Source: Thermosipho africanus Ob7 (GTDB taxonomy: Bacteria; Thermotogota; Thermotogae; Thermotogales; Fervidobacteriaceae). From it: 64,000 nt of DNA. The stretch spans positions 186,001 through 250,000 of the forward strand of contig NZ_NKRG01000001.1 of NCBI RefSeq assembly GCF_003351105.1, written 5' to 3'. Shown here piece after piece: positions 20,952 through 64,000 of this stretch (its first letter is position 1; each line of letters opens with the position of its first letter). The notes under the pieces were generated by a model that saw nothing but the letters and a program-made list of their open reading frames with translations, made no database searches and was not told the origin of the DNA. The position numbers and the translations under genes are program-made.

Positions 20952-23327
20952 TGGGATTTTTAAAGAAAATACTTGAAAAAATTTCTCCATTTTTTACGAT
21001 GTTAAAAGAAAAATTAAAATTAAATAAAGTAATTGATTTTTTAAAATCGTTTTATAAAAGAAAAGTTCTGTTTATATTAACTATTTCAATAGTTGTAATT
21101 GCTGTTGCTTTGTCTATATTGCTTTCTAGAATACTAAGCAAGAATGCAATAGAAATTAATCCAAATCAAGAAATAACCATTATAGAAAATTTACATGTTA
21201 ATATTCCAAAAGGAGCTTTTCCATATGAAAAAAAAATTCAACCTTATTCCTCTGACTAAGGATTCAAATCCTGAAATTTTCTCATCTGCTCCATTTATAG
21301 ATGTAGTTTACGATGTTAAAGCCTCTGATGGAAAAACTGATTTTTCGTATGTTCCTATGACTTTTAGATATTATTTTCCAGCAAAATATTTTTTGGGAAT
21401 TGATTATAACAATGTTGCGCTTGCCTATATTCCGGACGATGGAAGTGCATTTAGAGTTTTCCCAGGATGCTACATTGGCTATGATGAAAAAGGATATTTT
21501 GTAGAAGCTAAGTCTTTTCACAGCTCTAAGATTGGGGTTGTAGCTTTAACTCCAAAAAAACAAGAACTAGGCATTAAAGTTTTAGTAGAAAAGTTGAGCC
21601 CAGAGCCTGCAATATTAATAGTTCCTGGAACAGACAGAAACTTTAAAGGATATTTTAAATCTGATGAAACTTCAGATTTAAATTTTTGGTCTGTCGCATT
21701 TTCAAATAGAACTATAATGCTTTACAATTATCCATTGTATGAAGTGCGCTCAAAGTTATACCAAGATATGGTAACAGATTACTTTAAAAGATCCGAACTA
21801 AAAAGTTACATAGAATTTGAAGCAGAAAGACTAGCTAGTGAATTGAAGAGGTTTAAAAATTTTAAATTTGATATTGTTGCACAAGACATTGGTGGGCTGA
21901 TAGTTACTTACACACTTCTTTTACATCCAGAAATAAATAATATAAGAAGAATTGCTTTTGTATCTGTCCCTTTTAAGGGAACCAATATTTCAAACCCTGT
22001 GTATTTTGCATCACTTTTATATGGTAAAAACCCAAGTGCACTTTCAAAAGTCTATAACTTGGATGAAAATATAGTATCTTCAGTTCAAACTCATATTTTT
22101 ACGTATTTGGAAACTGTAAATACGTATTGGAATGAGATATTACCAAACTCTCAGCTACTAAAAAAATTTGAAAATTTCAAATTTCCAGATTCTGTAAAAG
22201 TAGTTTCGTTTATGGGTACAAGACCTCCACTTGGGATTGATATTACAGGAAGTGGCCTTGCAAAATTTTATCCTGAGTTGATAAAGGGGCAAGGTGATGG
22301 AATCGTCTCAACTGATTCTGCAACACTTGAGGGTGTTCAACTTGTTCAAATAGACGGTGATGCTTATACATTTTATTCAAAAAGTGAGTTTATAGAAAAG
22401 TTGAAAGAATTCTTTACTTTTGATGAAATTAAAATTCCTGAATACAAGGATGATACGTATAGAGAATATGTTTCTCAAACTGAAAAGGAGAAAGAAGTAT
22501 ATCTTTCCAAATTAATTCCTTATAGATTTTCTGGTGCAACTATTTCAGATTCAATTGTCGTAGAATCTGAAGAAAAGTTAGATTATCCTGGAAACCAAAT
22601 AGCAATTTACAAGTCTGTGGTTTATACAGGTGGACCTGATGGACTATTTGCAAACGGAACTAAATTAATGGATGGACCAATTTTAAACTTAAAAGAAACT
22701 TTTGATGGAGTTTCTTTTAGAACGGCAAACGAGATATATTTCTATAGTCCGGCAATTAAAAAGAAATATAATATTGTATACGTTTCTGATTTTCTTGCAA
22801 CAGCTGAAGGTGTATATACTGCTGTTCAAGCAGGAGAGATGATAAGCTTCTGGGATCCACGGGGTAATAAAATTGTGGACTTGAAAGGACAATATGGAAG
22901 GATTAAAGTTGATAACAACTATTTGATTTTTTATACAAACAAGCAGATTTATGTTCCAAAATTAGAACTTCTTTTAAATGTTCCTCAGCTTGAAAACAAA
23001 AGTATAGATATTTCTGATGCTATTATTTACAAAAATGAAGTATTGTCAGTTACACGTAGTTATGGATTTTTATTCTTTGACATAGGTACTACAGAAGGAA
23101 ACTACGTAGGAGAAGGTTGGATAGGAAATATCAAAATCCATCATGTTGCAAATTACTTTTTGACTATCGGTAAGAACTTTATTACCATAGTTGATATTCC
23201 TGAAAGAAGAGTGTTAAAGATAATTGAGAAACTTGATTTTGATGTAATAAATTCTGCTACAGATGGTAAATACTTATATTTAGTATCAAAAGATGGCATT
23301 TATAAATATAAAGTTAGGGAATATTAG
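20951..23327 (+). pseudogene. Membrane-anchored alpha/beta-hydrolase-like protein, frame broken at A9
   Basis: Two frames together give one ~790-residue protein. The first (20951-21259) has a membrane anchor (residues 37-58) and a NIPKGAFPYEKK segment; the second continues with NLIPLTKDSNPEIF. The break lies at nine A (21228-21236): one extra or two fewer A restores the frame. The second part has a lipase-like fold (AILIVPGTDRN; nucleophile elbow VAQDIGGL with Asp instead of Ser) and a C-terminal propeller-like half. It may be expressed by slippage, may be decaying, or the run may be misread. It sits mid-operon. Confidence 0.7.
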
Positions 23328-34153: not shown

Positions 34154-35143
34154 CTAAAATCTTCCTCCCATGAGTAAAGTCATTACCGCTTTTGCTGTAT
34201 GGAGCCTATTTTCTGCTTCATCGTAAACAACGGAATGTGGGCCGTCTATAACACTATCAACAACTTCCTTTCCTCTGTCTGCTGGAAGAGCATGCATGTA
34301 GATTGAATGTTTTTTGGTAAGTTTCATTAATTCTTCAGTACATATCCAATTTTTATGTTTTGCTTGCTCTGCTCTTATTTCATCAGGATTATCTGATACA
34401 AAGAATCCTCCCCAGTTTTTAGGAATAACAATATCAGCATCAACAAAGGCATCTTCCATTTTATGAGATATTTCTAATTTTCCACCATACATTTCCGCAT
34501 TTTTCTTTGCCTGTTCAACAATGTCAGGCATGAGATCGAATCCTTCGGGATAAGCCAAAGTTACATCCATACCAAACCTAGTAAATAACAATATTTGAGA
34601 TTGAGGGACGGATAAAGGTTTTAAATGGCTTTCAGCATATGCCCAACTAATACCTACTTTTAATCCTCTTAAATTTTTGCCAAACCTTTCTTGAATTGTC
34701 ATAAGGTCAGCCATTACCTGGAAAGGATGGTAAACATCATCCTGTAAATTCATGACTGGAGCTTTTGAATGTTTTGCTATTTCATTTAAATATTTGTTTC
34801 CTTCACCAAATTTACAGTATCTAATTCCTATTCCATCACCGAATCTTGAAAGAATTATTCCAGTATCTTTTGCAACTTCACCATGGGCAATTTGCATTTT
34901 ATCTGGTGTTAAGAAAATTCCAGTACCACCTAATTGAGCAATACCAGCTTGCATACTATTTCTTGTTCTTGTGCTTTCATCAAAGAATATTAAAAACAAT
35001 GTTTTGTACAAAAGGTATGGAGTTGGTTCTCCATGGCTGAACTTAATTTTTAGATCTCTTGCAAGATCTAGCATGAGTTCAATTTCTTCATTTGTAAAAT
35101 CTTGTGTGGTTATAAAATGCCTTCCTCTAAAAAATGTGGACAT
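34154..35143 (-). CDS. ygeW: Knotted carbamoyltransferase, YgeW-like
   Basis: A 329-residue member of the aspartate/ornithine transcarbamoylase fold. The carbamoyl-phosphate motif is STRTRNS near residue 56; a second site motif is HPFQVMADLMTIQE; HALPADRG lies near the C-terminus. The insert FLTPDKMQIAHGEVAKDTGIIL is typical of YgeW-type rather than anabolic OTC. No arginine or pyrimidine synthesis genes are near. With hyuA, ssnA and ygeY neighbours, it fits a degradative role releasing carbamoyl phosphate for ATP. The amino substrate is unknown. Confidence 0.85.
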   Translation of the reverse strand: MSTFFRGRHFITTQDFTNEEIELMLDLARDLKIKFSHGEPTPYLLYKTLFLIFFDESTRTRNSMQAGIAQLGGTGIFLTPDKMQIAHGEVAKDTGIILSRFGDGIGIRYCKFGEGNKYLNEIAKHSKAPVMNLQDDVYHPFQVMADLMTIQERFGKNLRGLKVGISWAYAESHLKPLSVPQSQILLFTRFGMDVTLAYPEGFDLMPDIVEQAKKNAEMYGGKLEISHKMEDAFVDADIVIPKNWGGFFVSDNPDEIRAEQAKHKNWICTEELMKLTKKHSIYMHALPADRGKEVVDSVIDGPHSVVYDEAENRLHTAKAVMTLLMGGRF

Positions 35144-35144
35144 C

Positions 35145-36356
35145 TTAACCCCTCCTTGTTTTTAAAAGTTCAACAATTGTCTTTGGAAAAGTTGCATAGA
35201 ATGCAGCAGCTTTTACAAGATGTTCTATTTCTACTTTTTCATTTGGTGCATGTGCAAACCTTTCTTCTCCAGGACCAAAACCAACAGTTGGTATTTCATA
35301 TACTCCGGCTGTTACAGTACCATTTGTTGAAAATGTCCATTTATCTATGAAAGGTTCTTTTCCAAAAACATCGATGTAATTCTTTTTTGCTGCTTGCACT
35401 ATGAAACTATCTTCTGGGAAAGTCCAAACAGGGAAGTATTTTTCGGTTGGAAAAATTTCACCTGTATAGGATGGCTTTTTGTATTCAAGTTCAATAATTT
35501 CAGCATCTTTTATACCGGCTCTTTTAAATACATCTTTTATTTCTGCAAAGACTGTTTCTTTTGTTTCACCTTCAGTTATTCTTCTATCAATTTGTATTTC
35601 GCACTCGTCTGGAACAGCGTTATGAGAAGGGGATTTAAAGAAAATTTGAGAAACAACAATTGTGCCTTTTCCAAGGAAAGAATCGCTTTTTAAACGGTCA
35701 TTTAATTTTTCAATTTCATTTATTATTTTTGCCATTTTATAAATAGCATTGACACCTCTTTCAGGTGCGCTTGCATGGGCCGACAGTCCTGTAGTTCTAA
35801 TTCTAAATTCGATTCTTCCTCTATGACCTCTGTATATATTTAACGATGTAGGTTCAGTAATTACAACAAAATCAGGTTTTAGATGTTCTTTTTCTACAAT
35901 ATATCTCCAGCAAAGTCCATCGCAATCTTCTTCCATTACTGTACCGGTTATGTAAAGTGTAAAATCATCAAAAAGTCCCAGTTCTTTTAAAATTTTTGCA
36001 CCATACACCATAGAGCACATTCCGGCTTTTTGATCGGAAGCCCCTCGGCCATACACCCATTTTTCATCAAAATCTCCGCTGAAAGGGTCTTTTTCCCAGA
36101 GTTTTTCATTTCCTACGTCTACGGTATCAATGTGTGCATCCATTGCAATTTTGTATTTTCCATTTCCAATCTTTCCAATAATGTTTCCTAATCCATCAAT
36201 TTTAATTTCATCAAAACCTACTTTTTCCATTTCCTCTTTTATTACATGAACAACTTCTTTTTCTTGTCCAGAATAGCTTTTTGCTTTTATGAGTTTGCTC
36301 ATGAACTTAACGATTTCATTTTTGTATTTATAAGCAAGCTCTAATGCTTTATTCAT
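35145..36356 (-). CDS. ygeY: M20 family metallohydrolase, YgeY-like
   Basis: A 403-residue dinuclear zinc hydrolase of the ArgE/DapE/M20 family. Visible ligands and acids: MDAHIDTVDVG, VYGRGASDQKAGM, VMEEDCDGL and a late GFGPGEERFAHAPNE. GGGAGGTG before the ATG at 36356 sets the start; the ATG at 36371 lies within that signal. Neighbour genes match the yge cluster, so it may cleave an amide or carbamoyl intermediate of nucleobase breakdown. It is first in the minus-strand operon. Confidence 0.85.
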   Translation of the reverse strand: MNKALELAYKYKNEIVKFMSKLIKAKSYSGQEKEVVHVIKEEMEKVGFDEIKIDGLGNIIGKIGNGKYKIAMDAHIDTVDVGNEKLWEKDPFSGDFDEKWVYGRGASDQKAGMCSMVYGAKILKELGLFDDFTLYITGTVMEEDCDGLCWRYIVEKEHLKPDFVVITEPTSLNIYRGHRGRIEFRIRTTGLSAHASAPERGVNAIYKMAKIINEIEKLNDRLKSDSFLGKGTIVVSQIFFKSPSHNAVPDECEIQIDRRITEGETKETVFAEIKDVFKRAGIKDAEIIELEYKKPSYTGEIFPTEKYFPVWTFPEDSFIVQAAKKNYIDVFGKEPFIDKWTFSTNGTVTAGVYEIPTVGFGPGEERFAHAPNEKVEIEHLVKAAAFYATFPKTIVELLKTRRG

Positions 36357-49743: not shown

Positions 49744-50761
49744 TTATTGCACCTCCAATTCTGAAATGGTGAATGCCATAAGCTTTGCTGTATTTTCAAC
49801 GTCATTTACATGGACCTTTTCATATGGTGTGTGCATGTACTTTAATGGAATTGATATCAATTGAGTTTTTATCCCTGTCTTTACAAGTTGGACTGCGTCT
49901 GTATCAGTACCACTTCTTCTTGGAATAGGCTCGTATTGTATCTTTATGTTATATTGACTTGATACATTTTGTACCTTTTCGTTAAATTCTTTATCTACGA
50001 CAGGTCCAACAGCTACAACTGGCCCCTTATTGATTTCTATTTTTCTAAATCCAGGGATTGTTTCATCTCCATGTGTAACGTCTATAACAAATGCATAGTC
50101 AAGGTCTGCAAAATATGCTGCTGTAGGAGCGCCTGGACCAACTATTTCTTCTTGAGTGGAAAAAATAAAGTAAACATCAAATTGATGTTTTATTTTTTTA
50201 AGCATTTCAGCAGTTTTAATTAGTGAAACACAACTTGCTCTATTGTCAAGTGCAGGTGCGTATACTAAGTTGTTTTTTTCAAATCCTTCAATTTCATCTA
50301 ACATTACAATATCTCCAACTTGAATTTCTTTCCAATTTTCGTTCATACTTATATCAAGGAACAAATAATTAAAAGTTGGTATTTTTTTTTCTATCTTCTG
50401 CTTTTTGAAGGTGTGGTGCTAAAAATCCAAAAACTCCGTAGAATTCTCTATTTTTTGAATATATTTTTGCCCTTTGACCAATTACGGTTTTAGGATCCCA
50501 TCCACCTATACCAGCAACATATGCAAAACCATCATCGGTTATTTTTGAAATTACAAAACCAAGTTGGTCAACGTGTGCAAGTAGTCCAATTTTACCTTTA
50601 CCTTCCCCTTTTTTTACACAAACTAAACTTCCAACTTTTGTATAATGGTATTCATCTACTAAGTCTTTCATAATATTTTCAATTTCTTTTGTTACTTTGT
50701 GTTCATATCCCGATGGTCCATGAATTGATGATAGCTTTAGTAACAAATCTTTAGTGTTCAC
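49744..50761 (-). pseudogene. M42 family aminopeptidase, frame broken at A9
   Basis: The N-terminal piece (50369-50761) has GPSGYEHKVTKEI and LLAHVDQLGFVI. The C-terminal piece (to 49744) has LDNRASCVSLI, STQEEIVGPGAP, VIDVTHGDE and PLKYMHTPYEKV. Together they hold every catalytic element of an intact ~335-residue M42 peptidase. The break is at nine A of the minus strand (50382-50390): removing one A (or adding two) gives LQKAEDRKKIPTFNYLFLD. All other residues are preserved, so slippage or a base-calling error is more likely than old decay. Confidence 0.85.
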
Positions 50762-52997: not shown

Positions 52998-53059
52998 ATT
53001 TGTGTTTTTTTCTATTTGGTGTATAATGGAATTGTATTAAATTTTGTGAGGTGATATCC

Positions 53060-53479
53060 ATGGGTATTAAAAGTGGAGACAAAGTTAAAGTCCATTATGT
53101 GGGAAAATTTGAGGATGGAGAAGTTTTTGACAGTTCAGTTGGAAAAGAGCCATTAGAATTTGTAGTTGGTATGAACCAAGTTATTCCAGGCTTTGAAGAG
53201 GGTTTGATGGGTATGGAAGTTGGAGAAAAAAGGACAATCAATGTTCCGTTTGAAAAGGCATATGGGCCTTATAGAGAAGATCTTGTTTTTCCAGTTGAAA
53301 AGTCAAAGCTTCCAGAAGATGTTGCGGTGGATCATTTGTTGGAAGTTCATCAACCAGATGGTAGTAGCTTTATTGTTAGAGTAAGTGATATAAAAAATGA
53401 CATGGCTTATTTAGATGCAAATCATCCACTTGCAGGGAAAAACTTGATATTTGAAGTAGAGATAGTTTCTATTGGTTAA
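53060..53479 (+). CDS. SlyD-like FKBP peptidyl-prolyl isomerase
   Basis: A 139-residue protein. KVKVHYVGKFEDGEVFDSS, VIPGFEEGLMGMEVGEKRTI and the inserted flap (residues 70-120) followed by NHPLAGKNLIFEVEI are the order seen in SlyD. It catalyses proline isomerisation and aids folding. The His-rich metal tail of E. coli SlyD is absent. GAGGTGAT sets the ATG at 53060. Confidence 0.93.
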   Translation: MGIKSGDKVKVHYVGKFEDGEVFDSSVGKEPLEFVVGMNQVIPGFEEGLMGMEVGEKRTINVPFEKAYGPYREDLVFPVEKSKLPEDVAVDHLLEVHQPDGSSFIVRVSDIKNDMAYLDANHPLAGKNLIFEVEIVSIG

Positions 53480-53518
53480 TGATTTCTTTTTATTAAAATA
53501 ACAAAGTATTTTATCGAT

Positions 53519-53556
53519 GTACCCCATCCAGAGTGAAGAGGATGGGGTATTTTTAA
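53519..53556 (+). terminator. Terminator after the FKBP gene
   Basis: TACCCCATCC and GGATGGGGTA pair over 10 bp around an 11-base loop, followed by T5. Confidence 0.8.
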
Positions 53557-53559
53557 ATT

Positions 53560-53751
53560 CAATTAGATGATTATTTTTTAAGAAATATGAATTTACCTTG
53601 AATGGCTTGAAAATTATGTAATAACAATTCATTTGATAATATTAATGTTTTTAATTTGTGTTTTAAAGTTAGCCATTAAAACCAAATTATATTTTTTATT
53701 TGTTTTTTAAAAAAATTACTACCAAAGTTTTTGTTCTGCTAATTAAATTGA
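53560..53751. other. AT-rich intergenic spacer
   Basis: About 190 bases between the FKBP terminator and the IS remnant. Very AT-rich, no ORF with a ribosome site and no repeat recognised. Confidence 0.5.
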
Positions 53752-54088
53752 ATCTTGCCAAAGTAAAAATAAGTTAAATTAGGATATAAAAAGAAAATAA
53801 AGGATACTAGTAGTGGGATTTATTGAAAATCAAAGAAAAGATAAATGTGTATTTAAAATCTAGAAGGTAAGAATTGTATGAGAAGAAAAATAAATAGATT
53901 AATATATAGAAAAATGTTGATAAAAGAACGGTATATAGAAAAGTTAAAACAGAAGATTAATAAGAAGGTAATAAAATAACAGATGACATATATATTACTA
54001 GGATAGCAGTTAGCAGAATAGAAGCACTTACAACTTATCATAAAATGATAGGATTAATCGATAGATAATTTTTTATATTGACTCGGGT
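53752..54088 (+). mobile_element. Shorter decayed copy of the same IS next to the array 2 leader
   Basis: The left end (CTTGCCAAAGTAAAAATAAG) and right end (TTTTATATTGACTCGGGT) match the ends of the copy at 16702-17453. Between them are the same transposase remnants (GATTTATTGAAAATCAAAG; AGAAAAATAAATAGATTAATATA), but more is deleted, leaving 337 bp. It cannot code for a transposase. Confidence 0.72.
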
Positions 54089-54109
54089 GTATTCACTTTT
54101 GTAGTTGTT

Positions 54110-54425
54110 TGAAAATAAGATAAAAAAATTAACTAAAAAGAAATTTAAATTTAACTATAAAAAAGTGTTGAAGTAATTCTATGAAAGAAAATCTTTTTAA
54201 CATACTTTTAACCAGATTCAAAAAAAGCTTATTTTTACTTTTTCTATAATATAATAGATGTAACATTTATGTTAACGGACTAAAATTAGACAAATTTCAA
54301 GGGGATGTTTTCGAAGATAAAATTAAATAAAAGCTCATAAATTCTAGATTTAACTTACCGTTTACTTCCGCTCAAAGGTTTTGTTACTTTTTCTTGTTAT
54401 ATTTATTTATGAGAATAGTTATAGG
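54110..54425 (+). promoter_or_regulatory. CRISPR leader of array 2
   Basis: About 300 AT-rich bases; the 100 bases next to the first repeat are nearly identical to the array 1 leader (shared CTCATAAATTCTAGATTT and GTTATATTTATTTATGAG). A CTATAATATAATAG box near 54244-54258 is a likely -10 for precursor crRNA. It directs spacer uptake at the left end of array 2. Confidence 0.88.
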
Positions 54426-55594
54426 GTTTAGAATCTACCTATGAGGAATGAAAACACGTTCGGTATTGGTTCAACATTTATTTCGTCAATTGTTGCGTTT
54501 AGAATCTACCTATGAGGAATGAAAACAGGACCTTTCCAGAATTTTTTATTTGCTTCGTGTAAAAGAAAAAAGTTTAGAATCTACCTATGAGGAATGAAAA
54601 CGGTCAATCACAAGTTCTTCTTTTTGAAGTTCTGCTGTAACGCGCTGTTTAGAATCTACCTATGAGGAATGAAAACGGTTTTATTTTCTTGTATTGCACG
54701 TTTCCTTCCAGCGTTTAGAATCTACCTATGAGGAATGAAAACACACCTGAAAGCGCGGCACTGAAAAAAAACCGTGCTTTCTTTTGTTGTTTAGAATCTA
54801 CCTATGAGGAATGAAAACTGTTCCAGAGATCTACTTTTTCTTTGTAAAGTTGTTTTGTAGCCAGTTTAGAATCTACCTATGAGGAATGAAAACTTTAATC
54901 TGATAATTTTTTATTTTGTTATGTATCTTTAGTTTAGAATCTACCTATGAGGAATGAAAACTTTATATACATAAGGACACATAAGATAGGTATTAATACG
55001 AGTTTAGAATCTACCTATGAGGAATGAAAACGTTGCGATAAATAACCTTCCCATCAGGGGTTGTGGAAAGGTTTAGAATCTACCTATGAGGAATGAAAAC
55101 ATATTTTTTAGCAAGTTCTTTTGCTTTGTTGTTTGATATTTTAGGTTTAGAATCTACCTATGAGGAATGAAAACTAATAATCGTACCATCGCGTTTGCTA
55201 GTACTGTTGTTGCGTTTAGAATCTACCTATGAGGAATGAAAACATATAAATTCTTTTTCTATTCCTTCCAATCTAAATTTCGTTTAGAATCTACCTATGA
55301 GGAATGAAAACGAGTATATTCGCTGCTTTTCCAAGCTCACGCAATTTTTCTTGTTTAGAATCTACCTATGAGGAATGAAAACTTGTATTGGGCAACAATT
55401 ACAACATCATCCGGTTGTAAATCCAAGTTTAGAATCTACCTATGAGGAATGAAAACATTTCAAATATGTCGTCGGTGTCTAAATCAATAATTTTTTCCGT
55501 TTAGAATCTACCTATGAGGAATGAAAACTATGATCCGTGTACAACAATGCATATTGAAAATAATGTTTAGAATCTACCTATGAGGAATGAAAAC
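54426..55594 (+). CRISPR. CRISPR array 2: 17 repeats, 16 spacers
   Basis: A 30-bp repeat reading GTTTAGAATCTACC...GAGGAATGAAAAC on the plus strand, all 17 copies apparently identical, with spacers of roughly 35-46 bases. The leader is on the left and a hairpin terminator lies beyond the right end. It is about 600 bases upstream of cas2-cas1-cas2. Several spacers translate as open protein on the minus strand, so the crRNAs would be antisense to those messages. Confidence 0.98.
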
Positions 55595-55710
55595 TGTATT
55601 ATTTATTTAAAAAATATAGTTTTATATTTAGAACTTATTTGAAAAAATATAAGAAGATTATTAATAAATCATGATTTAACAAATTGATATGGATAAATTA
55701 TATTTTTTAA

Positions 55711-55741
55711 ATTGGAGCAATTAATTGCTCCAATTTTTTAT
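55711..55741 (+). terminator. Terminator downstream of CRISPR array 2
   Basis: ATTGGAGCAATTAATTGCTCCAAT is a long perfect palindrome split around its centre, followed by T6. It would end the precursor crRNA. The 115 bases between array and hairpin hold nothing else recognisable. Confidence 0.8.
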
Positions 55742-55804
55742 GTCAGATTTTAAAGGTTTAAATCGTATTATAAGTGTAAAGCAAATTTTAAAGGAGGGAT
55801 TTTT

Positions 55805-56182
55805 GTGAGAAAATTTTTTATAGTTCTTTTAATAAGTATTTTTATTATAATCTCTTTTGGTGAGCAAAACTTTTTAACAACACCATCACAAGTGGAATCT
55901 TTAGCTAGAGTTCATGCAAATGAAGATGTTAATAAATTTTGGCCATTTTTAGGTGGTTTTGTATTTGGTATTATTGCTCCAATATACAATTACGTAGTTG
56001 AGCCTGAAGTTCCTGCCGAAAGATTAGTGAAACTAAGAAGTATTATTAAAAGCGAAGATGATTATTTGATAGATATTTATGTAAGGACGTATAAAGATGA
56101 GATAAAAAAGATAAAAGTTGGTATGTCTTTTGCCGGTTGGGGTTCTTTTATCGCACTTTTAGCAATTTCTATATCGACTTAA
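55805..56182 (+). CDS. Small exported/membrane protein of unknown function between array and cas genes
   Basis: A 125-residue protein (GTG start, AAAGGAGGG 7 bases before). A signal peptide or anchor spans residues 1-19. A hydrophobic segment (FLGGFVFGIIAPIYNYVV, residues 48-65) and a C-terminal one (AGWGSFIALLAISI, residues 109-123) are present. It has its own terminator at 56184, so it is separate from the cas operon. I do not recognise a family; a link to CRISPR is positional only. Confidence 0.6.
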   Translation: MRKFFIVLLISIFIIISFGEQNFLTTPSQVESLARVHANEDVNKFWPFLGGFVFGIIAPIYNYVVEPEVPAERLVKLRSIIKSEDDYLIDIYVRTYKDEIKKIKVGMSFAGWGSFIALLAISIST

Positions 56183-56206
56183 AGCCTGGGTCTTCCAGGC
56201 CTTTTT
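56183..56206 (+). terminator. Terminator before the cas genes
   Basis: GCCTGG and CCAGGC pair around a 5-base loop, followed by CTTTTT; the stop codon of the upstream gene abuts it. Confidence 0.75.
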
Positions 56207-56228
56207 AAAGTTTTAAGAGGTGATTTTT

Positions 56229-56492
56229 TTGTATTTGATAATGATTTACGATGTAAATAAAAAGAGAGTTGGAAAAGTTTTAAAAGTAGCAAGAAAGTAT
56301 TTAAAATGGGTTCAAAATTCAGTGTTAGAAGGTAAAATAACTAAGAGTAATTTTGAAACGTTAAGGAATCAAATTTTAAGTATAATAGATGAAGATGAAG
56401 ACACTATTTATTGGTATATATTAGAACCGGAGTTTGTACCATATAGAAAAATTTATGGGAACAAAAAAATTAATGTAACAAATATAATTTAA
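56229..56492 (+). CDS. cas2: Cas2 (first copy)
   Basis: About 87 residues from a TTG start at 56229 behind AAGAGGTGA. The opening LIMIYDVNKKRVGKVLKVARKYLKWVQNSVLEG is the Cas2 beta-1/alpha-1 core with the conserved Asp. Cas2 dimers bridge two Cas1 dimers during spacer capture. It lies 14 bases before cas1, and a second cas2 follows cas1. Confidence 0.92.
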   Translation: MYLIMIYDVNKKRVGKVLKVARKYLKWVQNSVLEGKITKSNFETLRNQILSIIDEDEDTIYWYILEPEFVPYRKIYGNKKINVTNII

Positions 56493-56506
56493 TGGAGGTT
56501 TAAAAA

Positions 56507-57490
56507 ATGGAAACCTTATATATTTTTACTGATGGGGAACTAAAAAGAAAAAACCACGCGTTATACTTTGTTCCAAAAAGCAAAGATTCAAATCCATTTT
56601 TTGTTCCATTAAAAAATATTTCTTCAATTATGATTTTTTCAGAGGTAAGTTTTAATAAAAAATTTTTGGGTTTGTTAGCGAAAGAAGGTATACCTACCTT
56701 TTTTTATGGTTATTATGGGGATTTTATTGGTTCTTTTTATCCACCAGAGAACAATAAAACTGGAGAGATGATAGTTTTGCAGTTTCAATATTATTATGAT
56801 TTAAGTAAAAGGCTTGAAATTGCAAAAGAAATATTAGAATCTGCAGTTTTGAATATGCTTTGGGTGCTGAATGGATATAAAGAAGTTACTAATGAAGAGT
56901 TAAATTATATAGTAAAGATTAAGGATAGTTTGAAAAAGCAAAATAATATACCAGCCTTAATGGCCATAGAAGGAAATATTAGAAAGGCTTATTATAAAGC
57001 TTTAGGGAAAATTGTAAAGCGTAAAGGATTTGATTTTGACGAAAGACTAAAAAGACCTCCAAAAGATGAAATAAATGCACTTATAAGCTTTGGAAATATA
57101 ATACTTTATAATACAGTTTTAGCCGAGATATATAAAACTTCTTTAGAGCCAAGAATAAGTTTTTTGCATGAAACAAATAAGCGTAAATTTTCTTTACAAC
57201 TTGATATTGCAGAGATTTTTAAACCAATAATTGTGGATAAAGCAATTTTGAAATTAGTGAATAAAAAAGAAATTAAAAAAGAAGACTTTAATTTTAACAA
57301 CAATGGGGTATTTTTATATGAAGATGCAAAGAAAAAATTTATAAATGAAATTGAGGAGAGATTAAATAAGAAAGTTACAATTTATGAAAATCAAAATGTA
57401 ACTTTTAAAACAGTAATAAGGCATGAATGTTATAAATTGATCAGACATTTAAAAGGAGTTGAAAAATTTAAGGGATTTGTGATGGGGTGA
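56507..57490 (+). CDS. cas1: Cas1 integrase
   Basis: A 327-residue integrase that inserts spacers at the leader end. The N-terminal beta domain starts METLYIFTDGELKRKNHALYF. Catalytic residues are Glu155 (AIEGNIRKAYY), His221 (SFLHETNKRKF) and Glu236 (LDIAEIFKP), all present, so the enzyme looks active. AATGGAGG precedes the ATG, and it overlaps the second cas2 frame. Confidence 0.95.
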   Translation: METLYIFTDGELKRKNHALYFVPKSKDSNPFFVPLKNISSIMIFSEVSFNKKFLGLLAKEGIPTFFYGYYGDFIGSFYPPENNKTGEMIVLQFQYYYDLSKRLEIAKEILESAVLNMLWVLNGYKEVTNEELNYIVKIKDSLKKQNNIPALMAIEGNIRKAYYKALGKIVKRKGFDFDERLKRPPKDEINALISFGNIILYNTVLAEIYKTSLEPRISFLHETNKRKFSLQLDIAEIFKPIIVDKAILKLVNKKEIKKEDFNFNNNGVFLYEDAKKKFINEIEERLNKKVTIYENQNVTFKTVIRHECYKLIRHLKGVEKFKGFVMG

Positions 57491-57495
57491 TTTAT

Positions 57496-57765
57496 TTGAA
57501 GTATCTTTTGCTTGTTTATGATGTAAATGAAAAAAGAGTGAACAAAATACATAGAATTTTAAAAAAATACCTTGTTTGGCAGCAAAATTCAACTTTTGAA
57601 GGGTATTTATCTCAATCAAATATTAAAAAATTGTTCTATGAAGTTAAAAATAAAATTAATGAAGAAGAGGATAGTGTTGTAGTCTATTTTTTTAATTCAA
57701 ATAAGGTTTTTAGAAAAGTTATTGATGGAAAGGATAAGTGTATATTTAATAATAAGTTTATCTAA
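57496..57765 (+). CDS. cas2: Cas2 (second copy)
   Basis: About 89 residues from a TTG at 57496, behind GGGGTGA at the cas1 end. LLLVYDVNEKRVNKIHRILKKYLVWQQNSTFEGYLS matches Cas2 and clearly resembles the first copy (same YDVN..RV...KYL.W.QNS.EG pattern), but it has diverged. Two cas2 genes flanking one cas1 is uncommon. Which copy works with Cas1 cannot be told. Confidence 0.9.
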   Translation: MKYLLLVYDVNEKRVNKIHRILKKYLVWQQNSTFEGYLSQSNIKKLFYEVKNKINEEEDSVVVYFFNSNKVFRKVIDGKDKCIFNNKFI

Positions 57766-57779
57766 AAACAAAAATATGT

Positions 57780-57785
57780 TATAAT
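57780..57785 (+). promoter_or_regulatory. Possible -10 box of the signalling operon
   Basis: TATAAT 39 bases before the TTG at 57819, in the 53-base gap after the second cas2. The -35 is weak (TTTATC near 57757). It would let the MazF-like/sigma/Lon genes be transcribed separately from cas1-cas2. Confidence 0.4.
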
Positions 57786-57818
57786 AAATGTAAATGGAGG
57801 TGGAAGGAGGAAAAATAA

Positions 57819-58232
57819 TTGAAACAATTGATTGATGCAATTTTTCAGAAAGAACTGGGGGATTTTAAATCTTTGATAGGTTATGTATATAGATTAAAAG
57901 AAATTTCAAAAATTTTGGGTTTTGATACATTGTATAAATCAAGAAGTACAGAAAGAGAAAGAAGGCCAGCTATTGTTGAGGACAATGGAAAAAATAGTTT
58001 AAAAATTTTGTTTTTATCAACTAAAAGTTATTCAAGAATAAAAGTAGATATAAATAAGTTTTGTGTAATCAGTGAAGATTTTGAATGTGCTGAATTGGTA
58101 TTAAAATCATCATATGCATTCAATTACCATAAAAAATTAGTGTTTAAGCTTCCAAGAAAAGTTATTGAGGAAAGTTTTGTAAAATGTGGTTTATGTAGAA
58201 AAAATATAAAAAATTTTATTGAGGTGATATAA
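57819..58232 (+). CDS. Small MazF/PemK-like protein with a CxxC motif
   Basis: A 137-residue protein with TTG start behind GGAAGGAGG. Residues 40-105 (RERRPAIVEDNG, then ILFLSTKSYSRIKVDI) resemble the RPxxVV strand and following strands of MazF/PemK toxins. The end holds FVKCGLCRKNI (CxxC). It is the first gene of the sigma/Lon unit and starts just two bases before that of the next gene ends its spacer. It could be a second target or partner of the protease, or a toxin. The MazF resemblance is my reading, not a search result. Confidence 0.45.
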   Translation: MKQLIDAIFQKELGDFKSLIGYVYRLKEISKILGFDTLYKSRSTERERRPAIVEDNGKNSLKILFLSTKSYSRIKVDINKFCVISEDFECAELVLKSSYAFNYHKKLVFKLPRKVIEESFVKCGLCRKNIKNFIEVI

Positions 58233-58234
58233 AG

Positions 58235-58910
58235 GTGAAAGAGATTATATTAAAGTACTTGAATAATAAGTTTGAAGAAGAAGAGGAAAATAAATTGTAT
58301 CTTTTAATAAAAAAAAATTGTAACTATAATAATTGGCACTCATTCTAATTATAAAGATACATTGATTGATATATATGGAACTTATGATTCGGCTGTTAAT
58401 GAAATTATAAACGAAATATTTATAAAAATAAAAAATAAAAAAGAGATTTTGATGTCAATAATAAACAATATTGAAAACATTGAAAGTTATATTTCAAGGA
58501 TGATTTTAAATCATATTATCGACATTGTAAAGAGCTATAAATCTAAACTTTCTTTGAATAAAGAAGATGATGACGGGAACGAAAAGATAGATGTGATAAA
58601 TATTGCTGAATTTGATGATTTAAAATCTGAAATTATTGCAGAGTATTTTGTTGAAGAGTTAAAATCTTTAGATAATATGCAACTTTGTTATTATTTTTAC
58701 AAGGTTCTCTACAATGAAGAAATATTCTATAGTGAAAAATCAAAGGATGCAAAGTATAAAATGGTTCAAAGATTAAAAGAAAAACTGAGGAATTTAGTAG
58801 AAGATTTTGGAATAGATCAAAAAGAATTTGCAATAGCAGTGAAAATCTATATGTCAGAAATTTGTGATAAGATTCGTCATAATAATAGAGAAGAAAAAAA
58901 TAAAAAGTAG
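58235..58910 (+). pseudogene. ECF-type sigma factor (CalpS-like), frame broken at A9
   Basis: The first frame (GTG 58235 behind GAGGTGA) runs to TAA at 58346; the second is open to 58910. A run of nine A (58309-58317) joins them: losing one A gives LYLLIKKIVTIIIGTHSNY and a ~225-residue protein. The join has region 2-like helices (DSAVNEIINEIFIKIKN, ENIESYISRMILNHIIDIVKSY) and a region 4-like C-terminal half (KMVQRLKEKLRNLVEDFGI). Order beside a MazF-like protein and a Lon-SAVED protease fits CalpS. Slippage expression, a base error, or true inactivation are all possible. Confidence 0.7.
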
Positions 58911-58919
58911 GAGGTTACT

Positions 58920-59684
58920 ATGAGCTTTTTAAAGAAAGAATTTGAATTGTATAAAAATTTATTTGGAAAATATAAATTAAATATTGAATCCCTAAAGATA
59001 GTGCCTGAAGGAAAAGCCTTGGAGGCAGGAGATGTTTTTGTAATCTATGGTGATATTTTAGTGTATGGAGTTGTTATTGAAAAAAATGGGGATTTAGCTG
59101 AATGCGTTTTGCTTTCTCAAGATGTTTTTTTAAGTAGCTCAAAAGCTTTAAAAATAAAAATAAATCATTTAGTTGATTATGTTTACGTGACACACGTAAA
59201 TTTTTATATTGAAGATAATTTTGCAAAAAATTATTGTCAAGTCATTATAAATGTAAAAGAAGATATCAACAAAATTGCTGAAAATGTTGAAGAATTAGAA
59301 GAACAAATCTATACAGGTCCAAGAAAAGAATATTTTGATCTATTGATCGACCAAATATCTTTATTGTACGATATTTTCTTTGAGAAGATTTTTGATGAGA
59401 CCAAAGAAGAAGACAAAATAATAGAAATAAATATTCCATACGCTAGTGAATTTGCGTTAGTTGCAGGGACAAATAGTTTAAGAGGGGAAAATTTTGTTGG
59501 TATTGTTGAAAACAATACCCTAAAAGTTTATTTGCAAGATAACGCTATTGGTAAAAAAGGAAAGTTGATTTTTAAAAACCAGGTTATCTATGAAGGAGAA
59601 CTGCCAAATGCCTTTGTGTCAAATAATATAAAAGTATCAGTTGAAGATTTAAAAAAATTTTTAGTTATTGAGGTGATTGATTGA
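58920..59684 (+). CDS. CalpT-like sigma-sequestering protein (MazF-like fold), candidate protease target
   Basis: A 254-residue protein, ATG behind AGGAGG. Residues 28-110 (LEAGDVFVIYGDILVYGVVIEKNG, VFLSSSKALKIKINHLVDYVYV) look like the SH3-type barrel of MazF. A helical linker (NKIAENVEELEEQI, residues 115-165) and a beta-rich C-terminal domain (residues 175-254) follow. In CRISPR-Lon systems the MazF homologue CalpT binds the sigma factor and is cut by the Lon protease; size and position between sigma and Lon genes fit. Sequence resemblance alone is weak; context carries the call. Confidence 0.55.
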   Translation: MSFLKKEFELYKNLFGKYKLNIESLKIVPEGKALEAGDVFVIYGDILVYGVVIEKNGDLAECVLLSQDVFLSSSKALKIKINHLVDYVYVTHVNFYIEDNFAKNYCQVIINVKEDINKIAENVEELEEQIYTGPRKEYFDLLIDQISLLYDIFFEKIFDETKEEDKIIEINIPYASEFALVAGTNSLRGENFVGIVENNTLKVYLQDNAIGKKGKLIFKNQVIYEGELPNAFVSNNIKVSVEDLKKFLVIEVID

Positions 59685-61123
59685 TGTTTTCAAGGCTGTT
59701 GAGTTCAAATTCTTCTGATTTTTTAAAAATCTTGGAGCGTGACGACATTACAGTAAAGGAAGCAATTGAGTCTTTTATAAATGCGGAAGACTTTGATAAT
59801 GAATTTCTTGTTTTTTATGAGATAGTAAAAAAAATTAAAGAAAAAAAGATTGTTGATTTAAATCAAGAATTATTAAAAAAATTCTTTAATGGAGAAGAAG
59901 AAATAATATTTGATATTTACAAAAACGATTTTGTTGAAGTTTTTTTCCCTACAGTAAACAAACTTGGAAACGGAAAAATTGCCAGAGCAATTATTTTTGA
60001 ATCAAAAAAAAGTTTTACAAATAATCCAGACTTGAAAAGTTCACTTGAGAAAATTGAAAGTCTTGTTGGTAAAAAACTTATTGTAATATTTGACAGTGAA
60101 TTTAAGGGTAATTCTTTTGAGCTTGCTGTAGCTATTGGTTCATTATGTAAAAAAATTCCTAAAAATATAGCATTTACTGGAGAAATTGATGAAAAAGGGA
60201 ATATCAAGAGAAATATTGAATATTTAGATTTAAAAATGAAAATTTGTAGTGAAAATAATTTAAAACTAATAAGTGCTTTTGATGTGGATAATGTATTTGA
60301 ACTTAAGGAATTTTTTGAAGCAAAGAAAATACATATACCAATACTAATTTCGTTAATGGCAAAAGATAAAGAATATATTAGAACTTCATATGAAGAATTA
60401 AAAGAGGCAGTTAACGAAAAATTTGAAATAAAATACAGTGATATTTTTGAAAAAATTTACGATGTAAATAAAGTTTTTGTCAAAGATAGCTTGAATGATG
60501 ATTGGGGACAAGTTTTAAAAGAAGTAAATAGCTTGCTTTACAAAATTATATCAAATAGAGGTATCCCCCATATTGCAATAATGGGGCCTGCATCATTTTC
60601 TATGGCTTTAGGTATAGCTTTAGGTGTTCAAAATCCGTTAGTTGTTTATCACAAAGCAGGAATTGAATATAAGCCTGTTATTGATCTGACTGACAATGTT
60701 AGAAAGGTAAAGAACATAGTAAATGATTATAAATTTGTAAAGTATTCAGTGGAAAATGAAAATGGTAAAAATTGTGCATTTATATTGTATTTTGCTTCTC
60801 ACAATCCATATGATGCAGTTAAAAACTTTTTAAGCAAAAATAATATTGATTCAAAATTGGTATTAATTGAACCAAATTTTGGAAAAGGGAATTTACCCGC
60901 AGAAGATTGGAGTGAAATTGTTTCAGAAATAATGTCTATTACTCAGAACATACAATTTAAACATTCTTGTGAAAACGTCTTTTTCTTTATGAGTTGTCCG
61001 GTTCCATTAGCTTTTGGAGTAGGGCTTTCATTTGGAGATTTTGCAAAGGGTTCAATATTCCACTTTGATAAAAATACGGGTGATTATATTGAGGTATTTA
61101 AAATAGAAAAAATTAGGGGGTAA
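59684..61123 (+). CDS. Lon protease-SAVED fusion (CalpL-like), cyclic-oligoadenylate-activated protease
   Basis: About 479 residues. The middle (95-225) is a Lon proteolytic domain: Ser144 in KGNSFELAVAIG, TGEIDEKGNI at 165-174, and Lys184 in YLDLKMK, giving the Ser-Lys dyad about 40 residues apart. The last ~230 residues are a SAVED domain with two related halves (HIAIMGPASFSMALGIALG near 296; VFFFMSCPVPLAFGVGLSFG near 432). SAVED binds cyclic oligonucleotides made by Cas10. No AAA+ domain is present. ATG at 59684 is preferred over the adjacent TTG because AGGTGA lies 8 bases before. Confidence 0.82.
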   Translation: MFSRLLSSNSSDFLKILERDDITVKEAIESFINAEDFDNEFLVFYEIVKKIKEKKIVDLNQELLKKFFNGEEEIIFDIYKNDFVEVFFPTVNKLGNGKIARAIIFESKKSFTNNPDLKSSLEKIESLVGKKLIVIFDSEFKGNSFELAVAIGSLCKKIPKNIAFTGEIDEKGNIKRNIEYLDLKMKICSENNLKLISAFDVDNVFELKEFFEAKKIHIPILISLMAKDKEYIRTSYEELKEAVNEKFEIKYSDIFEKIYDVNKVFVKDSLNDDWGQVLKEVNSLLYKIISNRGIPHIAIMGPASFSMALGIALGVQNPLVVYHKAGIEYKPVIDLTDNVRKVKNIVNDYKFVKYSVENENGKNCAFILYFASHNPYDAVKNFLSKNNIDSKLVLIEPNFGKGNLPAEDWSEIVSEIMSITQNIQFKHSCENVFFFMSCPVPLAFGVGLSFGDFAKGSIFHFDKNTGDYIEVFKIEKIRG

Positions 61124-61127
61124 TTTT

Positions 61128-62561
61128 ATGAAGTTATTTTTTTCCACCTTTGGAAAGATTAGTAATTATAAAGAAGTTGAATATTCTATTGATTACAACG
61201 AAAACACATTTGTAAGTCCGTTTTTACCAGATTTAATGTACAAAGCTTTTGGGGTTGATACTACAGAGCTTTTTTTACTAGATACTTTGGTAGAAAAAAA
61301 TGATTTATAAAAAGAAGATTTTAAATACGAAGACATTATTACTAGTCTGGAAAATAAGTATTCTGATTATTTTAAAAGTAAAGATTATAAAGGAAATTTA
61401 AATTTACATATTATTCCTGGTGTTGGAAGTTATAAAGAATTTAGATTTGTTGGAAACATGAATGATACATATTATATGACGTTAATTCAGCTTTTGAATA
61501 TTTTTTCAAGACCAGAAGTAATTAATTCTGAAGAAATTGAAGTGATATTTGATATTAGTTTTGGTATTAATTATCAATCTAATGTTTTATATAGAACGTT
61601 AATGGATATTTTACCAATATTGGCGTATTTCAAAAAGGTACGTTTTAAACTTACAAATGCAGAGCCTGTAATTAACACTTCAGCAGAGGGAAAAAATAAA
61701 ATTAATGTTTATGTTGTTGAAGAAAAAGTATTTGAACAGTCTATATCTTATAAAAAAGATTTTGCTAAAAAAACTATTAATGTTTTTAGAGGTTTGTCTG
61801 TTAATGAAAGAAAAGAAGTTGGGAAAAATTATATTGGAGAATTTGAAAAAAGATTAAGAAATGAAAAAAATATGGGTTTGAATGATATTTTTTTAAATTT
61901 AGAATTATATTTAAAGTCTATTTATTACGGTCTTCCTCTTTTATATTTATATACAATGAATAGAGTTGATTTTAAATATGTAGTTGATAAATCATTAGAA
62001 GTGTATAATTCATCAATTGAAATTAGAGATAGTGATGAAAAATTAAAAATGGTACTTAGGAAGTTAGAATTTTCAGAAGGTATAAAATATTTGGTGCTTG
62101 GCAGTATATTTAAGATTTACTTTGAAAATATTTATGGAACAAAATACTGTACTGAAATACCATATGATGAACTAAAGAAATTGTCAAATTTTATATGGAA
62201 AATTGATGAGTTTAAAAATCAAATTTCATTGGTTCTTGAAAAAGAGATTAAAGAGATTGAAAGTTTGTTTGATTATATAGAAGAAGGAGAAGAAATACTT
62301 TTTGATTTAGAGATTCTCAAATCAAGGAAAAATGAAAGTATAGAAGGCGAAGAAAAGGTTGAAAATACAAAAAAAGAACTAGAACCTGAAAATGATGAAT
62401 TAAAAAAACAAAATAGTAAAGAAAATTTCTCAAGAGAAGAAAGAAACTTTGTTGCTCATGGTAGTTTATCTAAAAACACTTTTTATTTGAAAAAGTATAA
62501 TTCAATGGTTTGCATAAGGTTAAATGAAGAAAAAATATGTGAATTAGGAAAAGCAATATAG
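61128..62561 (+). pseudogene. csx1: Csx1 (CARF-HEPN) ribonuclease with an in-frame TAA
   Basis: One frame runs from ATG 61128 to 62561 but has TAA at 61308-61310 (codon 61); reading through gives ~477 residues. The CARF half has LHIIPGVGSY and the Csx1-type IFDISFGINYQSNVLYRTL. The HEPN half ends with the RNase motif RNFVAHG (62442-62462; RX4H). Csx1 degrades RNA when bound to cyclic oligoadenylate. The rest is free of stops, so the change is recent, strain-specific, or an error. Restart at the ATG 61458 would lose the first CARF strands. Confidence 0.82.
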
Positions 62562-62571
62562 GGGGAGTTTA

Positions 62572-63294
62572 ATGAGAATTTATTTAGATTTAGATTTTGA
62601 AAAGTTAGAGCTTCCAATTCATTATAATCATATATTACAGTCTATCATTATAAACATGATAGATTCTAGCGGATATAGAAAATTTATACACGATGAAGGG
62701 TATGTTTTGGGAAAAAGAAAATTCAAATTATATACTTTTTCAAGATTGCTTGGGAAATTTCAAATATTTGGTAATAAAATAGCTTTTTTCAATGGTGCAA
62801 GGCTTATTATATCTTCGTTAGATGATGCTATGGTCGAATATATTATAAATTATATTTTGAAGAAAGGATATATAAATGTATTAGGTGAAAAAATATATGT
62901 TAAAGCTGCTGTTTTAAAGTCCTTTCCTTCTGCAAATTATCTTAGAGTTTCAACAAAATCTCCCGTGGTAGTTTATTCAACTTTGTTTAATTATGAAAAT
63001 AAAAAAGAAACAATTTTTTATGAACCGGATTCAAGTAAATTTTTATCTCTTGTATATGAAAACATTTTAAAAAAATACACTGCTTTTTATGGAAGCATAT
63101 CTAAAAATAATATTGAAATAAAACATGTAGGTAAAAATCCAAAAAGAGTAAAGGTAGTTTATAAGAATACGGTAATTTTTGGTTGGCTTACTGCATTTGA
63201 TATATATGGAGATTTTGAGTTACTAAAGGTTGCTTATGACGCTGGAATAGGAATGAAAAATTCAATGGGATTTGGATGTGTGGAGTTAATTTAG
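62572..63294 (+). CDS. cas6: Cas6 crRNA-processing endoribonuclease
   Basis: A 240-residue RAMP protein. The first half has IHYNHILQSIIINMID with a His near residue 17-20; the C-terminal Gly-rich loop GIGMKNSMGFGCVELI ends the protein as in Cas6. It cuts precursor crRNA within the repeat and leaves an 8-base 5' tag. GGGGGAG precedes the ATG, and it sits between csx1 and cmr1. With one array type and two arrays it probably serves both. Confidence 0.92.
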   Translation: MRIYLDLDFEKLELPIHYNHILQSIIINMIDSSGYRKFIHDEGYVLGKRKFKLYTFSRLLGKFQIFGNKIAFFNGARLIISSLDDAMVEYIINYILKKGYINVLGEKIYVKAAVLKSFPSANYLRVSTKSPVVVYSTLFNYENKKETIFYEPDSSKFLSLVYENILKKYTAFYGSISKNNIEIKHVGKNPKRVKVVYKNTVIFGWLTAFDIYGDFELLKVAYDAGIGMKNSMGFGCVELI

Positions 63295-63317
63295 GATTTT
63301 AAAGGGAGAGTGATTTT

Positions 63318-64000
63318 ATGAAAGGTTTGGAAACTTTAAAATTTAATATTGAATTTATTTCTCCATTGATAAATCGCAGAGGAAAATATAAAGATTCGAT
63401 TCTTCTGCCACAAACTGTACGTGGAGTAATGAGATATTACTTTAGGGCAACAGCTGCAAGAGTTTTTGGAAATAATTATAAAAAGATCAAAGAATTGGAA
63501 GATATTATATTTGGTTCTATTAATAACAAGTCTTTTTTTGATGTAACAGTTACTTTGCAAAAAGAAAGGAAAATAAAATTATCTGAGTTAAAGGCTTTGA
63601 GATATCCATTATATGGTGTTATTTTTACTAAAAAAAATGAAATAAAATTCAATGAAAAAATAAGTTTATTAGATTCTAGGAGTGAGTTTTTGGTAAATTT
63701 TATATTTTTTAAATCATTTTTCAAAAGAAAAATAAAAGATTGTAATAAAGTAGATGAATATTTTCATAAATTTAAGGAGTTTATCAAGGATTTATTTGTC
63801 TTAATTTCATTGGTTGGAGGATTTGGAGCAAAGGTAAAGAAAGGATTTGGACAATTTGTTATAAGAAACATAGAAAGAGATATTAAATTAGAGGACATAG
63901 GTACAATATTAAAGAATTTAGAGGAAAAGATAAAATATTTGGATAAAATTTTTATAAAAGAAAACGAGAAAAATAAGGAAAGTATTACGAATAATAGTAG
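63318..64000 (+). CDS. cmr1: Cmr1-like RAMP subunit of a type III-B complex, truncated by window end
   Basis: 227 visible residues, ATG at 63318 behind GGGAGAG; the gene runs off the end. FNIEFISPLINRRGKYK, then LPQTVRGVMRYYFRATAARVFG and the Gly-rich GGFGAKVKKGFGQFVI near residue 175 are Cmr1 features. Cmr1 sits at the 3' end of the crRNA in the type III-B complex. Further cmr genes (cas10/cmr2, cmr3-6) must lie beyond 64000. Confidence 0.87.
   Translation, partial: MKGLETLKFNIEFISPLINRRGKYKDSILLPQTVRGVMRYYFRATAARVFGNNYKKIKELEDIIFGSINNKSFFDVTVTLQKERKIKLSELKALRYPLYGVIFTKKNEIKFNEKISLLDSRSEFLVNFIFFKSFFKRKIKDCNKVDEYFHKFKEFIKDLFVLISLVGGFGAKVKKGFGQFVIRNIERDIKLEDIGTILKNLEEKIKYLDKIFIKENEKNKESITNNS

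Follow-up and report, generated by a model that had tools for sequence, protein, structure and literature searches.

A proposed fourth gene and a predicted promoter regulon for the CalpL-CalpT-CalpS system of Thermosipho africanus Ob7

We analyzed a 64,000-nucleotide stretch of the Thermosipho africanus Ob7 genome (hereafter the window; RefSeq assembly GCF_003351105.1, contig NZ_NKRG01000001.1, positions 186,001 to 250,000; G000:C1:186001-250000 in our numbering of genomes, in which G000 is Ob7), part of a 1.93-Mb assembly in 23 contigs. The window carries a CalpL-CalpT-CalpS system within a type III-B CRISPR setting; among 1113 type III loci surveyed in earlier work, 17 had CalpL (PMC11229360). 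The locus runs from a CRISPR array through a membrane-protein gene, cas2-like gene a, cas1, cas2-like gene b, a gene that we call gene 1, calpS, calpT, calpL, csx1 and cas6 to cmr1 (Table 1), and the order gene 1, calpS, calpT, calpL, csx1 is identical in seven Thermosipho-group genomes, this one included, which excludes a chance arrangement. A preliminary description, made from the sequence alone, had given the gene order, coordinates and motifs as we find them, with csx1, cas6 and cmr1 downstream, and its placement of the locus in a type III-B setting of a Thermotogales genome was supported. Our comparison set comprised 103 Thermotogota genomes, and the promoter-element and cas1 tests used the 45 genomes of the order. 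The sister species is G024, whose CalpL is 97% identical to that of G000; G028 and G029, which have the same operon, are Thermosipho sp., and the more distant G019 is a Fervidobacterium sp. A Cas10-like open reading frame (ORF) of 827 codons, named from its GGDD motif at residue 586, lies outside the window, and an Rfam scan of 53000-64000 gave no match.

The identity of calpL is beyond doubt. Its product matched the PADLOC profiles SAVED4--SAVED_LON (1.7e-193) and CRISPR-Lon (2.5e-173), the CalpL entries of the PDB (7qda, 6.7e-43; 8b0r, 6.8e-43) and Pfam SAVED (4.6e-14), as expected from the earlier reading of 59684-61123 as a Lon-SAVED fusion. Ser145 and Lys185, a Lon-like Ser-Lys dyad fused to SAVED, are invariant across 12 aligned sequences, and a search at E 1e-5 gave no CalpL match in plasmids or phages. 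CalpT matched PADLOC CRISPR-T (5.8e-66). In its model (predicted local distance difference test score, pLDDT, 85), residues 181-254 align to the T10 chain of the CalpL/T10 complex (8b0u_C, Z 9.1) and residues ~29-130 to MazF and CcdB folds (Z 8.3 to 7.1), a MazF-likeness that has already been published (PMC9704534). Ala182 likely marks the cleavage region of CalpT, because it is invariant in all 12 CalpT sequences and falls where the solved T10 chain, laid over the model, begins. CalpS is a divergent sigma factor. The frame at 58362-58910 matched PADLOC 'HTH' (9e-8) at profile positions 47-209 of 213 only, and the calpS N-terminus is therefore placed in another frame. Matches of calpS to sigma70-ECF (extracytoplasmic function) profiles at E ≤ 1e-3 were found in 8 of 12 genomes (G000, G024, G028 and G029 being the exceptions), and that of the G004 protein to Pfam Sigma70_r2 reached 6.1e-4, all under the curated cut-offs; a type III-E sigma profile is also weakly matched. 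With these results, both the ECF-sigma-like gene noted earlier at 58235-58910 and the overall naming of the system as CalpL-CalpT-CalpS were upheld.

Gene 1 was found in 12 of the 103 genomes, all of which also have CalpL and CalpT, and it stands directly upstream of calpS-calpT in every one; the extra MazF-like gene that the preliminary description had placed first is thus a conserved feature. It is absent from G009 and G022, both of which have CalpT, and from the 60%-complete G019. Among the seven Thermosipho-group genomes, a cas2-like gene lies upstream on the same strand in five (4 kb off in G024); G025 has a linked cas1 block ~13 kb from the Calp genes, and the G029 contig starts just before gene 1. 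In G004 and G013-G016, CalpL lies ~10 to 13 kb away, yet gene 1 directly precedes calpS and calpT and overlaps calpS in the ORF lists. The G025 copy (L026 6960-7405) lacks an open N-terminus owing to a frame change, and calpS, calpT and calpL are open there.

No convincing match to gene 1 was found in Pfam, PADLOC or NCBIfam, Pfam PemK/MazF (PF02452) matched none of seven family members, and a Foldseek search with the gene 1 model (pLDDT 84) returned nothing at E ≤ 0.001. When the Foldseek candidates were realigned (VIA), the best 43 rows, with Z from 6.3 down to 4.1, were all titled as MazF, CcdB, CptIN or toxins of that kind, and unrelated rows started at Z 3.1. Arg49 and a Ser or Thr at position 67 are each present in all 11 aligned copies (G016, near-identical to G014, was omitted) and stand in register with the RP and TSK of a true MazF from G028, in an hhalign alignment that is itself weak (probability 1%, E 0.054). 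They correspond to Arg25 and Thr48, reported to be catalytic in MazF, with Ser replacing Thr in one homologue (PMC7354611; also PMC8634880). Gene 1 thus resembles MazF/PemK toxins in its predicted fold, if at modest Z, and keeps their two catalytic positions; it differs from them in lacking a family-profile match, in having a sigma-factor neighbor and in two conserved cysteines (Cys82 and Cys126, invariant in 11/11). The model points to a protein that is MazF-folded and not a member of the MazF family, and we propose gene 1 as a fourth member of the Calp module. Of the two MazF-like products described earlier, CalpT stands by its CRISPR-T match and gene 1 at the level of fold only. Common origin of gene 1 with CalpT or CalpS is not claimed, the hhalign matches being weak. 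One viral-contig scan with a single peptide pattern gave no gene 1 relatives, and a separate PemK/MazF gene of G000 (contig 3, L062 1483-2037, minus strand) is distinct from gene 1. The fold, the retained Arg49 and Ser/Thr67 and the invariable position before calpS leave some room for gene 1 being an active MazF-type RNase that CalpT or CalpS restrains and that is released along with the sigma factor, but the lack of profile and significant Foldseek matches, together with cysteines that suggest a different, perhaps metal-binding, role, makes this doubtful.

Two kinds of candidate promoter were recognized around these genes. A housekeeping-type extended -10, TGnTATAAT, lies no more than 160 bp 5' of gene 1 in 11 of the 12 genomes (none in G004), and only four such strings occur on the entire plus strand of the window; the Calp module therefore looks constitutively expressed. 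The second kind, TGTCAGA followed by CGT 15 or 16 bases on, was first noticed by eye 5' of cas1/cas2a in G023, G030, G015, G013 and G014; we take its two-block layout to be that of ECF sigma promoters. Counting as Calp-linked any cas1 within 16 kb of CalpL (51 cas1 places in the 45 genomes, two fragment pairs merged), we found the element no more than 1 kb upstream in 10 of the 11 linked cases and in none of the 40 others (Fisher 8.6e-10), and at 5 of 6 against 0 of 40 when the five discovery genomes were removed (4.4e-6). Other cas1 genes of the same CalpS genomes are without it. Among 3780 letter permutations of the motif with its spacing unchanged, the real one scored 10/11, its shifted forms 7, 6 and 5, and all others at most 1; across spacings of 8 to 30, 16 scored 9, 15 scored 1 and the rest 0.

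Of the 68 exact sites in the 45 genomes, the 12 CalpS genomes hold 29 and the 33 others 39; these others include G009, G019 and G022 in spite of their Calp parts. Those that are intergenic, that is, outside any ORF of at least 100 codons, make up 20 of the 29 in CalpS genomes and 4 of the 39 elsewhere (p 5.9e-7; the four are in G009, G012, G019 and G038). A co-directional ORF of at least 80 codons starts within 250 bp of 19 of these 20 sites and of two of the four. As controls, with sites at all positions counted together, the reversed pattern gave 7 sites in CalpS genomes and 24 in the others, and spacings of 17-18 gave 12 and 30. The remaining nine sites in CalpS genomes comprise four in other coding sequence and five close upstream of calpT, within the calpS 3' end. 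At this calpS 3' site, the Ser codon is TCA and the Arg codon CGT in 12/12, while CGT accounts for only 2.6-15% of local Arg codons; the element is exact in nine of the 12, the degraded copies being those of G013, G014 and G016.

The genes behind the element form a short list of candidate targets. It stands directly before cas1 in G013-G016, before cas2a-cas1 in G023, G030 and G025, and before the membrane gene that precedes cas2a-cas1 in the window, G024 and G028 (both cas2-like genes of the window are presumably Cas2 genes). Homologues of this membrane gene, 41-46% identical to it by BLASTP, carry the element at unlinked places, alone, in G023 and G030. In the window, the element at 55741 starts right after a 12-pair terminator-like hairpin, which could end the array transcript. 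Both G000 and G024 have an RNase H-like gene behind the element; in G023 a more distant one (29% identical) is the third gene of a small operon that follows it. Further sites precede a CARF gene in G023 (Cas_APE2256, 9.1e-32), lipoprotein-like genes in G015 and G016 (so named by eye; they match no Pfam family) and, through the calpS 3' site, calpT-calpL. A short sigma-like ORF (L106 132-515, minus strand) was also seen ~1.5 kb from the RNase H-like candidate in G000, with a similar match nearby in G024.

Table 1 Features of the Calp locus in the window.
Feature	Coordinates	Strand	Remarks
CRISPR array	54426..55594	+	17 exact copies of a 30-nt repeat
Terminator-like hairpin	55709..55736	+	12 pairs; gap between array and candidate promoter
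Candidate CalpS promoter	55741..55768	+	TGTCAGA-N16-CGTAT
Putative membrane protein	55805..56182	+	125 aa; first gene 3' of candidate promoter; by eye
Terminator-like hairpin	56184..56200	+	separates membrane gene from cas2-like gene a
cas2-like gene a	56220..56492	+	similar to cas2-like gene b
cas1	56507..57490	+	Cas_Cas1 6.4e-86
cas2-like gene b	57487..57765	+	
Extended -10	57777..57785	+	TGTTATAAT; candidate housekeeping-type promoter of Calp genes
Gene 1	57819..58232	+	137 aa; predicted MazF-like fold; proposed fourth Calp component
calpS	58235..58910	+	ECF-type sigma factor; frame broken at A9 run 58309-58317
Candidate second CalpS promoter	58852..58879	+	TGTCAGA-N16-CGT within calpS 3' end; ~40 bp 5' of calpT
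calpT	58920..59684	+	MazF-like residues 29-130; T10-like residues 181-254
calpL	59681..61123	+	Lon-like (Ser145/Lys185) and SAVED
csx1	61128..62561	+	CARF-HEPN; broken by TAA 61308-61310
cas6	62572..63294	+	
cmr1	63318..64000	+	continues past window end

The upstream part of the pathway is taken from published work. As described there, CalpL is switched on by cyclic tetra-adenylate (cA4), and cleavage of CalpT yields T23 and T10, with presumed release of CalpS; the SAVED domain degrades cA4 as well (PMC11417357; PMC12751052). The cA4-driven cleavage and release were published for the Sulfurihydrogenibium proteins (PMC11417357). To this we add the gene identities, their conservation and the distribution of the element. 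Phage RNA bound by Cmr would lead Cas10 to make cA4; CalpL, binding it through SAVED, would cut the anti-sigma factor CalpT in its linker and free CalpS, which would then start transcription at TGTCAGA-N16-CGT promoters. The regulon would comprise cas1/cas2 for spacer acquisition, the small membrane protein, RNase H-like genes and, in some species, lipoprotein-like genes; calpT-calpL would itself be a target, closing a feedback loop, and the housekeeping-type promoter of the Calp genes would keep the switch always armed. We consider it probable that phage RNA acts in this way, through cA4, CalpL and CalpS, on a small regulon centered on spacer acquisition; both the reading of the element by CalpS and the place of adaptation as the main output we infer from sequence comparison.

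Several observations weigh against this reading. Both calpS and csx1 are broken in this assembly, and the one Calp-linked cas1 that lacks the element belongs to G004, which has CalpS. In the window, as in G024 and G028, a terminator-like hairpin separates the membrane gene from cas2a, so the membrane gene is the surest target in this genome and cas1 would need read-through. No element was seen upstream of the closest RNase H homologue in G023, and the intergenic elements of G009 and G038 and one of those in G025 have no ORF within 250 bp downstream. A search of G000 and G024 with one mismatch allowed, meant to extend the regulon, was set aside because its 35 sites did not clearly exceed the 27 of the reversed control. 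The G014 and G016 loci are near-identical and G000 and G024 are close kin, and because the genomes are related all p-values overstate independence. Finally, since these genomes hold other sigma factors, the element is assigned to its reader by co-occurrence, and G012 keeps an intergenic element with no CalpL or CalpT match. The G012 site (L114 about 1987, minus strand) is a TGTCAGA-N15-CGT identical to a site in G015 and perhaps reflects a recent loss.

The broken frames bear on whether the pathway still has an output in Ob7. The calpS break is a run of nine adenines where the sister species G024, the genome with which run length was compared, has eight and reads calpS in one frame; the csx1 nonsense codon arose by two substitutions relative to the sister, in which csx1 is open, and leaves a 60-codon N-terminal piece and a later in-frame ORF. 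It is tempting to read these lesions as decay of the effector branch that leaves CalpL without an output, but we regard this as rather unlikely. CalpL, CalpT and gene 1 retain open frames, and the same one-base slip from eight to nine recurs in two more genes of the window (T9 at 50382-50390 and A9 at 21228-21236), which points to sequence error; A9 runs can, moreover, be corrected by transcriptional slippage. With calpS intact in the sister and the slip repeated in these two genes, its frameshift is best taken as a sequence error or local lesion and not as a design feature. A conserved, programmed frameshift is rejected, because calpS reads in a single frame in all six other Thermosipho-group genomes, and the frameshifted sigma factor, presented earlier as part of a new version of the system, was accordingly dropped. 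In a forward survey of gene breaks, whose cut calpS fell below, 47 sister ORFs were matched over 90% of their length and four had no single covering ORF in the window: the two slips above, csx1 and 34752-35327, which has no indel and is perhaps not a real ORF. In the reverse survey 5 of 53 window ORFs went uncovered in the sister, two of these lying at the edges of fetched stretches; breaks thus occur outside the window as well. One more sigma-70 match of Ob7 (G000:C2:102589-103224) holds an in-frame TAA, a further sign of breaks in the assembly.

The main rival view is of an ordinary Calp system whose neighboring element serves some other, general ECF sigma factor in the Thermotogales, with a coincidental or ancestral tie to CalpS. 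The 18 genomes searched do hold three to nine sigma70-ECF matches each (SigA and fragments included), and the G012 site would fit such a reader. The concentration of intergenic sites in CalpS genomes argues the other way, as do the element-free cas1 genes elsewhere in those genomes and the absence of any intergenic element from G017, G020, G026 and G027, which hold such sigma factors; we judge a general reader to be improbable. Joining the CalpS regulon to an RNase role of gene 1 would give a two-armed alarm, in which cutting of CalpT frees CalpS to act on cas1/cas2, membrane and RNase H genes and also unleashes gene 1 as an RNase, so that memory might be laid down while growth is held; this we offer as speculation with low odds.

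The closest known system is CalpL-CalpT-CalpS of Sulfurihydrogenibium sp. YO3AOP1 (PMC11417357), with which the locus shares the Lon-SAVED protease, the T10-bearing anti-sigma substrate, the adjacent ECF-type sigma factor and the type III locus; set against its published description, gene 1 with its predicted MazF fold, 5' of calpS, and the predicted promoter element and regulon are extra. The type III-E CASP/Craspase system (Cas7-11, Csx29, Csx30, CASP-sigma and Csx31; PMC10028731) is alike in that a CRISPR-triggered protease cuts a sigma inhibitor, that a sigma motif occurs at cas1 and that the locus encodes a further conserved protein of unknown role (Csx31). That motif was derived from chromatin immunoprecipitation in the type III-E work (PMC10028731) and may serve as a convergent precedent for the element described here. 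As published, the type III-E protease is TPR-CHAT, bound to the effector, and its inhibitor is Csx30, whereas the Calp protease is Lon-SAVED and activated by cA4. The locus is not a type III-E CASP system, having a Lon-SAVED protease and cmr1 instead of TPR-CHAT on Cas7-11. Csa3a of the Sulfolobales, a transcription factor that binds cA4 and is believed to regulate adaptation genes, is a further parallel, but it is an archaeal CARF-HTH factor that works without a protease or a sigma factor; its overexpression is reported to have raised spacer uptake in S. islandicus and not in S. solfataricus (PMC8699464).

The pathway itself is known. As far as our searches show, what is new is the fourth gene and the predicted regulon; the literature searched, to which the original Nature description, the 2024 Molecular Cell SAVED-Lon paper and other key subscription papers were external, yielded no statement on the genes that CalpS controls. 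The csx1 nonsense codon, the gene 1-calpS-calpT module of 12 genomes and the likely output through the promoter element were absent from the preliminary description. The comparison yields a short, testable list of promoters, in which spacer acquisition is central. If the proposal is true, bacterial RNA-sensing type III systems would switch on memory formation during infection, by a logic like that proposed for type III-E CASP-sigma and archaeal Csa3, and the Calp pathway would gain a fourth component.

Some relatives show further variations on the Calp proteins. In G013-G016, separate short ORFs match the CalpT profile in its C-terminal (T10) portion alone (for example, L053 8868-9197, plus strand, and L055 4911-5213, minus strand) and are possibly decoys for the CalpL docking site. 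The G009 CalpL is split into two ORFs (L035 8398-9935), both of which contain FTGGLEEDLA where they join. In G022, a SAVED-only ORF (L036 10874-11668) adjoins CalpL and is reminiscent of the viral SAVED ring nuclease as described in PMC12751052.

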